Of a stretch of DNA of 64,000 bases, positions 3,833 through 48,616 are shown piece after piece. Origin of the DNA: Xanthostigma xanthostigma (taxonomy: Eukaryota; Arthropoda; Insecta; Raphidioptera; Raphidiidae); NCBI GenBank assembly GCA_963575645.1, contig OY754470.1, forward strand, positions 29,246,501 to 29,310,500, given 5' to 3'. Under the pieces are notes generated by a model. The model made no database searches and had not been told where the DNA came from. It worked only from the letters and a program-made list of their open reading frames with translations. The number at the start of each line of letters is the position of its first letter. Positions within the stretch are counted from its first letter, which is position 1. A program made the translations under genes and the position numbers.

Positions 3833-3932
3833 ATGAAGAACCAGGAACGAAAGGAAGCCATGTCACTGCTTTTCGTTGTCGTTGCCGCTGTATGCATCGT
3901 GCTGATGATGGCCGACTTCACCGAAGCGAAAC
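3833..3932 (+). CDS. CCHa2: CCHa2 exon 1 (signal peptide)
   Basis: It encodes MKNQERKEAMSLLF... to TEAK plus the first base of the next Arg codon. The donor is AAAC|gtaagt, a consensus site. The ATG at 3833 has A at -3. The alternative start at 3860 would remove a nine-residue charged leader and still leave a good signal peptide. Confidence 0.9.
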
Positions 3933-48000: not shown

Positions 48001-48616
48001 TATTATATCAAAGCGATTTATTTTTCTGTGTTGTTTAGCAGACAGAGGTTTTAATTCAGCTTTCAATAAATTTGTTTTCTTAACCTCACTTAGTGTATTA
48101 AGGTAATTATGTTTCGTCATCAAATTATGTTTCAGAAAACAAGCAGAACTAGTACCGTCCGTTCAGAAATGGACAAATGTAAGATTTCGGGTTTGGGAAA
48201 TATTTGTTGGCCAAAACTAGATTTTCGCATTTATTTCGGGCATTGACCGAATTCGGGTATAGATCGTAACATATACACCACCGAATTACTGAGGCCTGAG
48301 CCTAATACATTGAAAAAAAAAAACGAATGCTAGAATCTCAATGATGTTAATAATTGAGAAACGGAAAGAACAATTAAATTTTGAAGACGAAATAACATAA
48401 TACGGCAATTTTATGATTTCTTCTTAAGAAAAAAAAAATACATGTAAAAAGTTCAGTCGTTTAAAAGTAAACAAAATAAATTTTAATTAACTTACCAGAA
48501 ACACTGTCCATTAAAACTATTAACATAAAGGCAGTCGCAACTTTTGTAATGTCTTTCTGTGATATTATTACTGACATGTTTTTTAAATGATTAAGTTTTA
48601 TTTTTAAATTCTTCAT
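32908..48616 (-). CDS. CCHa1: CCHamide-1 neuropeptide precursor
   Basis: This is a prepropeptide of 176 aa in four exons on the - strand: 48616-48496, 40447-40412, 34728-34521 and 33073-32908. The exon sizes (121, 36, 208, 166) sum to 177 codons with the stop. The signal peptide has core VATAFMLIVLM and ends DSVSG. The mature peptide follows directly: SCLSYGHSCWGAH, then GKR, giving SCLSYGHSCWGAH-amide with one disulfide (or one Gly longer at the N-terminus). This is the insect CCHamide-1 pattern (fly: SCLEYGHSCWGAH-amide). The remaining 120 residues are an acidic, Ser/Asp-rich spacer ending HLPHLKLYKLMV, without further obvious peptides. In flies CCHamide-1 is made in endocrine gut cells and neurons and acts on its own GPCR; that is family knowledge. 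Introns are 8,048, 5,683 and 1,447 bp, and all splice sites are GT-AG. It is convergent with CCHa2. An in-frame second Met at 48577 may be the real start. Confidence 0.93.
33090..33330. repeat. Repeat-like segment in CCHa1 intron 3
   Basis: The text gggggagggggtgacttttg, followed by atgggaacccccatttttt, is of a kind common in insect interspersed repeats. The ends are not defined. Confidence 0.35.
33856..33954. mobile_element. Hairpin MITE, about 99 bp
   Basis: TTAACTCGCACACATTGTGA, continuing tgaaacatacgt, is inverted at the right side (atatgtttcatcacgatgtgtacgaattaa) with few mismatches. It lies in CCHa1 intron 2's downstream neighbour, intron 3. Confidence 0.65.
34521..34728 (-). CDS. CCHa1: CCHa1 exon 3
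   Basis: The acceptor is ttttttaaag|CT. It completes Ala and gives HGKR, the amidation and cleavage site, then SDSSSKDGSNKWFLSKLVPV and on to DIDQVLK. The donor is AACG|gtaaag, ending in phase 2. Confidence 0.9.
34729..35571 (-). other. CCHa1 intron 2, first part
   Basis: AT-rich with no recognised element. The GC-richer open frame at 35105-35290 has no family features. Confidence 0.4.
35572..35967. mobile_element. PIF/Harbinger-like MITE
   Basis: The ends AGGCCGCTGCACACGAGGCT and agcctcgtgtgcagcggcct are exact inverted repeats flanked by TAA (35569-35571 and 35968-35970). A 3-bp TWA duplication and such ends fit PIF/Harbinger. It is 396 bp; the internal frame is not a transposase. It lies in CCHa1 intron 2. 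Confidence 0.75.
36191..36678. mobile_element. Possible MITE with about 20-bp inverted ends
   Basis: atggtcttagattgtgatca near 36192 is mirrored by tggtcacaatctaaggtcat near 36677. There is no clear target duplication and no coding capacity. Confidence 0.45.
37677..38284. mobile_element. PIF/Harbinger-like non-autonomous element
   Basis: The ends gtattaacacacgatcgaac and gttcgatcgtgtgttaatac are exact inverted repeats. The similarity continues through cttggtacgg and ggacatggt for about 45 bp. TTA/TAA stands at the ends as expected for this superfamily. It contains a - strand fragment of a transposase-like frame (37884-38150). Total 608 bp, in CCHa1 intron 2. Confidence 0.75.
37884..38150 (-). 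pseudogene. Harbinger transposase N-terminal fragment
   Basis: The frame starts MPPIKRAKIAIFLAATLMPP and continues RKKRKEWAKFYLKDRDFSHM and LLNNTPEEFLERCY-like text. The layout of basic K/R-W residues, then FSHxxLxxxL, then a 'PEEFLE' segment, resembles the start of insect PIF/Harbinger nucleases. Only about 75 residues remain and the catalytic part is missing, so this is an internal-deletion derivative. Assignment is from memory of the family and is moderate. Confidence 0.55.
38463..39099 (+). mobile_element. Helitron-like element with triplicated 173-bp segment
   Basis: Three near-identical 173-bp units, marked by aatgcgaatg at 38501, 38674 and 38847, carry ttacgctttcacgcaaaaac and gaaactttgcacatacactc. 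After the third unit comes a unique tail with gcgggcgtagccgcgggtag and the end CGGCTAGTT. A short hairpin just before CTAG is the usual Helitron 3' end, and this text is widespread in insects. The duplicate open frames at 38724 and 38905 are products of the repeat. Confidence 0.65.
39107..39262. mobile_element. Palindromic MITE, about 156 bp
   Basis: tgtttagattcttaaccgca at the left is mirrored by ttgcagtaaagaatctaaac at the right. The inner ttttaattcactgattagtg also has its inverse. The arms are about 70 bp and imperfect. It directly follows the Helitron-like end. Confidence 0.65.
39263..41802 (-). other. CCHa1 introns around the microexon
   Basis: Apart from the 36-nt exon at 40412-40447, only AT-rich intron is seen, with a CTGAAGA...GAAA hairpin motif on the - strand at about 41708-41733. 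Short open frames here have no family features. Confidence 0.45.
40412..40447 (-). CDS. CCHa1: CCHa1 exon 2 (36-nt microexon, mature peptide)
   Basis: The acceptor is tttcttgttcacag|GA and the donor GGGGAG|gtaatg. It reads (G)SCLSYGHSCWG plus the first base of Ala, phase 1 at both ends. It holds both cysteines and nearly the whole hormone and is far too short for ORF-based prediction. Confidence 0.93.
41803..41985. repeat. Palindrome with CTGAAGA...GAAA motif
   Basis: The left arm (aataaagaatagttactttt, then acaacagttttatta and tgtacatttcggaagct) and right arm are inverted copies of about 85 bp with a tiny loop near 41890. The - strand of the left arm reads GCTGAAGATGAGAGCTTAGC, then TTCCGAAATGT, one of the recurrent motifs of this window. 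Confidence 0.7.
42397..42549 (+). pseudogene. THAP-domain exon, likely P-element-type relic
   Basis: From an ATG in the frame MGKKLSNRKCCAVDCKDT, and after a one-base frame change near 42478, the text reads FHRYPGFSYEFERKKW and TAAVRRQ, ending CAAGG|gtaagt. CxxxC followed by FHRxP and then KKWxxAVRR is the first half of a THAP zinc finger, as in P-element transposases and THAP proteins. The C-terminal CxxH half is not seen in the next kilobase. It lies antisense in CCHa1 intron 1. With its frameshift it is best read as the first exon of a decayed transposon; a retained host THAP gene cannot be excluded. Confidence 0.58.
42854..43124 (-). other. Lys/Ser-rich open frame, unassigned
   Basis: A 90-codon frame starts MMCKYARNFRKRKSAESSHR and continues KKTSAERMAMTSSKRKRKKP. 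It is basic, has no recognised domain, and begins exactly at the edge of the MITE at 43125. It may belong to the same relic as the THAP exon or be chance. Confidence 0.25.
43125..43361. mobile_element. MITE with about 37-bp inverted ends
   Basis: atactgccctaaaaaggcaa, then agggcagtaagtgac, at the left is mirrored by gtcacttactgccttttgcc, then tttttacggcagcat, at the right. It is 237 bp, of unknown superfamily, in CCHa1 intron 1. Confidence 0.68.
43362..44504. other. Intronic stretch, no gene recognised
   Basis: CCHa1 intron 1. Bases 43440-43730 are GC-richer (a promoter-like or repeat patch with cgcatgcgcctaccctcgtg) and hold a 64-codon open frame without family features. Confidence 0.4.
44505..45470. 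mobile_element. Foldback element with about 310-bp inverted arms
   Basis: The left arm (gagcccgtaacactaaaacc onward) and right arm (to gttttagtgttacgggctc) are inverted copies of about 310 bp. Paired landmarks are aaaccctgctt, gtttactttattttgaag, gccgaaacc/ggtttcggc and ttacctcata. They differ at many sites. The 350-bp core holds gggcccccgccaacccagca. Open frames at 44636 (+) and 45391 (-) are the two arms read from each side. Long arms suggest a Mutator-like or foldback class, but no 9-bp duplication was found. Confidence 0.78.
45471..46559. other. Intronic AT-rich stretch
   Basis: CCHa1 intron 1. A loose internal duplication, catctgacggcgtaacg and catctgacgggcaacgc (46099 and 46161), is visible. 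No gene. Confidence 0.4.
46560..46760 (+). repeat. Interspersed repeat family C, copy 1
   Basis: The text tttaatgttaagaaacagtg, cttagcagaccacaaaa and cgtcatcatcagatacc recurs at about 52700-52920 in the same order. A related start (gctgcagaaccaccaaaat) occurs near 50930. Class unknown. Confidence 0.5.
47147..47190 (-). repeat. Family B fragment
   Basis: On the - strand, ttaaccaaagcatgcttgtc repeats the text at 1840-1860 of family B copy 1. Only a short piece is recognisable. Confidence 0.4.
47340..47840. mobile_element. TTAA-site MITE nested in the Ginger-like element
   Basis: GGTAGTACGAGCGCCAAGGC starts after TTAA (47336-47339), and its inverse gccttggtgctcgtactacc ends before TTAA (47841-47844). 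Inside is a second palindrome (ggtagatggatgatatg with its inverse at 47655) around a small hairpin cccgttgtg/cacaacggg, so almost all of the element is self-complementary. Confidence 0.8.
47845..48123 (-). pseudogene. Fragment of KRBA2/Ginger integrase-like protein
   Basis: The frame includes LKAELKPLSAKQHRKINRFD and IISIIDVEKLIKKRKED. The pattern 'RxFDIISIxxVEKLI' resembles the segment before the integrase core in KRAB-A-domain-2-like and Ginger-type proteins common in insect genomes. The catalytic part is absent. It lies between the nested MITE and the right terminal repeat. Assignment is from memory and moderate. Confidence 0.4.
48496..48616 (-). CDS. CCHa1: CCHa1 exon 1 (signal peptide)
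   Basis: It encodes MKNLKIKLNHLKN-MSVIISQKDITKVAT... to DSVS plus one base. The donor is TCTG|gtaagt. Met14 (48577) would give a 27-residue signal peptide of usual length. Met1 adds a basic leader. Confidence 0.87.

Follow-up and report, generated by a model that had tools for sequence, protein, structure and literature searches.

The precursor of insect CCHamide-1, the ligand of the CG30106 receptor group, bears a single GSCLSYGHSCWGAH followed by GKR directly after its signal segment (PMC7179676), and that of CCHamide-2, the ligand of the CG14593 receptor group, bears a single peptide, an amidation Gly and a basic site after the signal segment (PMC4926255); papers given by PMC number, here and below, are drawn on for parts of their text. 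Both types are present in 64,000 bp of the genome of Xanthostigma xanthostigma (Raphidioptera; assembly GCA_963575645.1, contig OY754470.1, positions 29,246,501–29,310,500), the whole stretch analysed and called the window hereafter. The CCHamide-1 precursor found there differs in nothing notable from the one described; here an intron splits the peptide between Gly and Ala-His. The CCHamide-2 precursor, which likewise carries one (KR)GCSAFGHACFGGH with Gly and basic site, differs in that Ala replaces Ser before the second Cys. By six-frame translation and rebuilt exon chains the genes lie tail to tail, CCHamide-2 on the + strand and CCHamide-1 on the − strand. We consider it very probable that they are two intact-looking genes derived from one ancestral CCHamide gene which was locally duplicated long ago, and that the copies were never separated. 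What the sequence shows directly is coding exons that are open and flanked by splice sites, sites for processing, a common first intron and the convergent order.

Each precursor holds one Cys-Cys peptide just behind a hydrophobic N-terminal segment (hydropathy; the cleavage site is a predicted one). Both peptides possess two Cys residues around x-x-aromatic-G-H-x, a terminal His and an amidation Gly, behind which stands a basic site, giving GRKR on the + strand and GKR on the − strand. The pattern C..[FYW]GH.C[FWY]G, which was composed after the peptides had been seen, is found twice when the window is read in six frames and not at all in 300 simulated windows (first-order Markov, with the dinucleotide transition frequencies of the window). 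The looser C..[FYW]GH.C gives two real occurrences versus three over all 300 simulations, and the loosest form, C..[FYW]GH, two versus 129.

Comparison by eye with the hallmarks given in PMC4926255, and with PMC7179676, supports the assignment of GCSAFGHACFGGH (+) to the CCHamide-2 type and of SCLSYGHSCWGAH (−) to the CCHamide-1 type, so far as peptide sequences can tell, and the gene identities claimed in the original prediction, which had been made from the letters of the window and had left it unsaid which gene was which, are borne out by these hallmarks. The string SCLSYGHSCWGAH is also in print for parasitoid wasps, Polyneoptera and a weevil; the exact string GCSAFGHACFGGH was not found in the open-access literature searched. 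In PMC7179676 GSCLSYGHSCWGAH is proposed as the ancestral CCHamide-1 form of Pterygota, and with signal cleavage immediately ahead of Gly-Ser-Cys, CCHamide-1 of Xanthostigma would be GSCLSYGHSCWGAH-amide, that is, the proposed ancestral form. Since the N-terminal Lys-Arg of CCHamide-2 is reported to stay uncut in a stick insect (PMC7179676), mature CCHamide-2 may here be KRGCSAFGHACFGGH-amide. For Chilo suppressalis PMC4926255 lists CCH1 precursors of 187 and 162 amino acids (aa; two splice forms) and a CCH2 precursor of 133 aa, together with the values 42, 45 and 22, which we take as signal lengths. The CCHamide-1 model, with 176 aa and its first Cys at residue 43, agrees with the CCH1 lengths and signal values; that of CCHamide-2, with 135 aa and the peptide Cys at residue 36, agrees with CCH2 in length.

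We infer the joining of the exons in both genes from sequence. The CCHamide-2 model (3833–3932, 30018–30277 and 31359–31406, + strand; 135 aa) has introns of 26,085 and 1,081 bp. Coding exon 1 (3833–3932) contains the ATG and the signal segment, the hydrophobic core of which is FVVVAAVCIVL, and ends in phase 1 at a GTAAGT donor; codon 10 is a further in-frame ATG, from which a product of 126 aa would start. Exon 2 (30018–30277) specifies (KR)GCSAFGHACFGGH-G-RKR, with GCSAFGHACFGGH-GRKR reading from 30020 in the six-frame translation, and then a spacer peptide, ending in phase 0 at a GTCAGT donor. Exon 3 (31359–31406) encodes LQTYRRNRRQEENVL and the stop codon. Its acceptor was picked among 19 phase-0 acceptors up to 35 kb (a filtered listing), and 31359 is preferred because an unbroken T run sits just before its AG. 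Acceptors 31332 and 31365 give the same frame and stop, and the pyrimidines in 20 positions number 14 (31332), 15 (31365) and 14 (31359). Sequence alone fixes neither this acceptor nor which Met, the first or that at residue 10, starts the protein. An unspliced end past 30277 was also considered and rejected: the frame is open to 30334, then meets a stop. A putative core promoter, TATAAA, lies at 3631–3636 (+), approximately 200 bp before the ATG.

The CCHamide-1 model comprises 48616–48496, 40447–40412, 34728–34521 and 33073–32908 on the − strand, with introns of 8,048, 5,683 and 1,447 bp. Exon 1 (48496–48616) has the ATG and a signal segment with the hydrophobic core VATAFMLIVLM, and its GTAAGT donor leaves phase 1. 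Exon 2 (40412–40447) is only 36 bp long, is in phase 1 at both ends and encodes (G)SCLSYGHSCWG, of which SCLSYGHSCWG is read at 40445–40413 on the − strand in the six-frame translation. The peptide is completed in exon 3 (34521–34728), which supplies the remainder through AHGKR and a spacer peptide and ends in phase 2 at a GTAAAG donor; its acceptor at 34728 is the sole fit to the pattern A-H-G-basic in the 25 kb scanned downstream of exon 2. Exon 4 (32908–33073), with the acceptor TTTCTTTCAG, holds the stop codon. A TATATAA at 48875–48881 (−), 265 bp before the ATG, is the putative core promoter, by motif.

The claim of seven exons stands in these predicted models, with three coding exons for CCHamide-2 and four for CCHamide-1; five of the five introns are GT-AG and the frames are open to the stop. 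Both Cys-Cys peptides were found by six-frame translation on the strands claimed for them, the convergent stops said to lie 1.5 kb apart are separated by 1,501 bp (31407–32907), and the extent put at some 45 kb is measured as a coding span of 44,784 bp. A hydrophobic N-terminal segment supports a signal-peptide exon in both precursors, by hydropathy and with a cleavage site that is predicted. The statement on “matching splice phases” holds in part: inside each gene they join in frame, while between the genes intron 1 alone agrees. Both genes look intact and are ordinary as genes.

Common descent of the two genes gains some support from intron 1, which in both is in phase 1 and interrupts the codon that stands two places ahead of the peptide's first Cys, while the later introns disagree. 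The aligned precursors share 18 of 44 residues across signal and peptide. When the window halves (1–32156 and 32157–64000) were compared by blastn (E ≤ 1e-3, low-complexity filter on), eight scattered matches were obtained, three of them inverted, which we take for mobile repeats; a comparison that omitted 59601–64000 yielded these eight as well. Because none covers a coding exon, the duplication is old, and a recent inverted duplication is ruled out. The largest of the matches is a direct one of 708 bp at 90% identity, between CCHamide-2 intron 1 (16374–17081) and DNA upstream of CCHamide-1 (56811–57474).

An old event agrees in kind with the literature, which dates the doubling of the CCHamide system to early insects or before, the papers disagreeing on the timing. 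In the text of PMC6617912 the doubling of the CCHamide receptor is placed in the early insect lineage and is absent in Collembola, while CCHamide paralogues are listed in decapods (PMC4888303) and a centipede is credited with two CCHamide-1 genes (PMC4244043). From adjacency in this one genome we infer that the arrangement is most readily seen as a remnant of local duplication. By our estimate the chance that two given genes among some 15,000 are neighbours is about 1 in 7,000, so that descent from one gene accounts for the order better than coincidence does. Retained adjacency after local duplication is, by analogy with linked hormone paralogues, the most likely cause. The original prediction had spoken of a local inverted duplication. 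A local duplication is a fair reading of the adjacency and of intron 1; it was not a recent one, and it may or may not have been inverted from the start, since a tandem copy with a later inversion gives the identical picture, as is argued for oxytocin and vasotocin (PMC8081664).

Several points weigh against the reading of the pair as old, locally duplicated CCHamide genes. The later introns differ, being in phase 1 (inside the peptide) and phase 2 in CCHamide-1 and in phase 0 in CCHamide-2. Exon 3 is the least certain part of CCHamide-2, being short and having two in-frame acceptors nearby, and the Chilo CCH2 value of 22 suits the residue-10 Met better than the first Met (PMC4926255). Pfam-A returned no family for either precursor at E ≤ 0.1, in a run of eight sequences and with the presence of a CCHamide model in Pfam not established; two other open reading frames (ORFs) of the window gave four weak matches there, all under the curated cut-offs. 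A protein search with CCHamide-2 as the only query gave nine candidates, none at E ≤ 0.001, and a scan of viral contigs with CCHamide-1 as the only query gave 13 pattern matches and no relatives.

Under the local duplication proposed above, an ancestral CCHamide gene would have been duplicated long ago and the copies would have stayed neighbours. Each gene would have a distant promoter of its own, and each mRNA, once spliced, would give a single-copy prepropeptide to be cleaved both behind the signal peptide and at the basic site. As known for the family, the Gly would presumably be amidated and a Cys-Cys bond would close the peptide, which would be secreted by endocrine cells of the gut and by neurons of the brain, each peptide acting on its own receptor.

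One might suppose instead that the genes met secondarily, by rearrangement in this lineage, in which case their adjacency would be uninformative on origin. The fact that only the first intron is common to them is also to be expected of genes duplicated elsewhere; however, a chance neighbouring of paralogues is unlikely a priori, and other ancient arthropod hormone paralogues have stayed adjacent (PMC7357564), so that we regard a secondary meeting as quite unlikely. A false join of two unlinked genes through an assembly or haplotig error appears very improbable. Satellite and other repeats are present in the window, but it is without any N, and the 1.5 kb that separates the stops has no match elsewhere in it at E ≤ 1e-3, hence a wrong join at that point is not favoured by any local repeat.

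Little credence can likewise be given to selection as the keeper of the tail-to-tail order, whether through common enhancers or through antisense 3' ends that overlap and adjust one another. The gap is just 1.5 kb as against introns of up to 26 kb, and in Drosophila both peptides are made by midgut endocrine cells and brain neurons (PMC3788761, PMC4500396). The 3' ends can be read in two ways. The first AATAAA past the CCHamide-2 stop is at 31697–31702 (+), with an ATTAAA earlier, at 31611, and the first poly(A) signal past the CCHamide-1 stop is an ATTAAA at 32356–32361 (−), followed by an AATAAA at 32083. These nearest signals would end the mRNAs near 31.7 kb and 32.3 kb, some 0.6 kb apart with 31697 and 32361 and some 0.35 kb apart with 32083, and so predict a gap in place of the overlapping antisense 3' untranslated regions (UTRs) that had been suggested. 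Later signals (AATAAA at 32025 on the + strand for CCHamide-2; ATTAAA at 31938 and AATAAA at 31766 on the − strand for CCHamide-1) would make the ends overlap. For the shared regulation that had also been proposed no support was found here, and separate TATA-like boxes ahead of each ATG suggest independent core promoters 45 kb apart.

Repeats of several kinds lie in and around the genes. A satellite of 163-bp units (59739–64000; approximately 26 copies, 94% match, one interval of 166 bp) reaches the end of the window and lies upstream of CCHamide-1, some 11 kb from its start codon; just before the satellite is a second tandem array (58987–59363) of 2.6 copies of a 147-bp unit. Three tandem 181-bp units are held in CCHamide-1 intron 2 at 38477–38999. 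The repeats at 38.5–39.1 kb may resemble moth-type Helitron ends, a likeness to which we attach no weight. CCHamide-2 intron 1 possesses large inverted repeats at 17148–18028 and 27434–28103, perhaps foldback elements, with 305-nt arms 4 nt apart (97%) that are partly AAT microsatellite, and with nested arms at 27.4–28.1 kb. A match to the Rfam tRNA model at 11400–11472 (32.4 bits, E 0.007) was not called by ARAGORN and may be a tRNA-derived short interspersed element (SINE). By eye, the long open frames at 51296–51805 (−) and 53396–54100 (+) appear to be remnants of retrotransposon reverse transcriptases; Pfam gave no family for them at E ≤ 0.1.

The two hormone families are well known, and their arrangement as neighbours is apparently little described, although we do not claim it as new. 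CCHa1 and CCHa2 of Drosophila lie on one chromosome arm, a point that carries no weight here. No CCHa1–CCHa2 neighbour pair was found in the open-access text searched, which leaves figures, supplements and subscription papers where one may be in print. Neither CCHamide gene could be placed in the Gryllus draft genome, according to the text of PMC9960350; that of PMC13042277 has both anchored to chromosomes by now and gives no positions; and Figure 8 of PMC6585902 depicts the CCHamide genes of Leptinotarsa. Linkage together with a common first intron speaks for local duplication, which bears on the disputed timing of the CCHamide doubling and can be tested simply by synteny. If the pair is conserved, it would be a natural case in which to ask whether control regions are common to two gut-brain hormones.

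Similar arrangements are described for other hormones. Oxytocin and vasotocin of vertebrates are likewise close paralogues by local duplication, with a tail-to-tail order in monotremes and placental mammals (PMC5818035, PMC8081664); the peptides are unrelated to the CCHamides and the likeness is in gene arrangement only. That the Xanthostigma pair is a counterpart of this locus, an undescribed and anciently linked insect hormone cluster the order of which has long been held by shared control of gut-brain expression, we think unlikely. Nearer in lineage, though again of peptide families other than CCHamide, are neuroparsins 3 and 4 of Eriocheir, which are likewise tail to tail (PMC4888303), the linked relaxin, gonadulin and aIGF paralogues of cockroach, termite and stick insect (PMC7357564), and the two linked eclosion hormone genes of beetles, in which all four orientations occur (PMC6585902). 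Since orientation changes easily in the eclosion hormone and oxytocin/vasotocin pairs, the tail-to-tail order of the CCHamide genes needs no special function.

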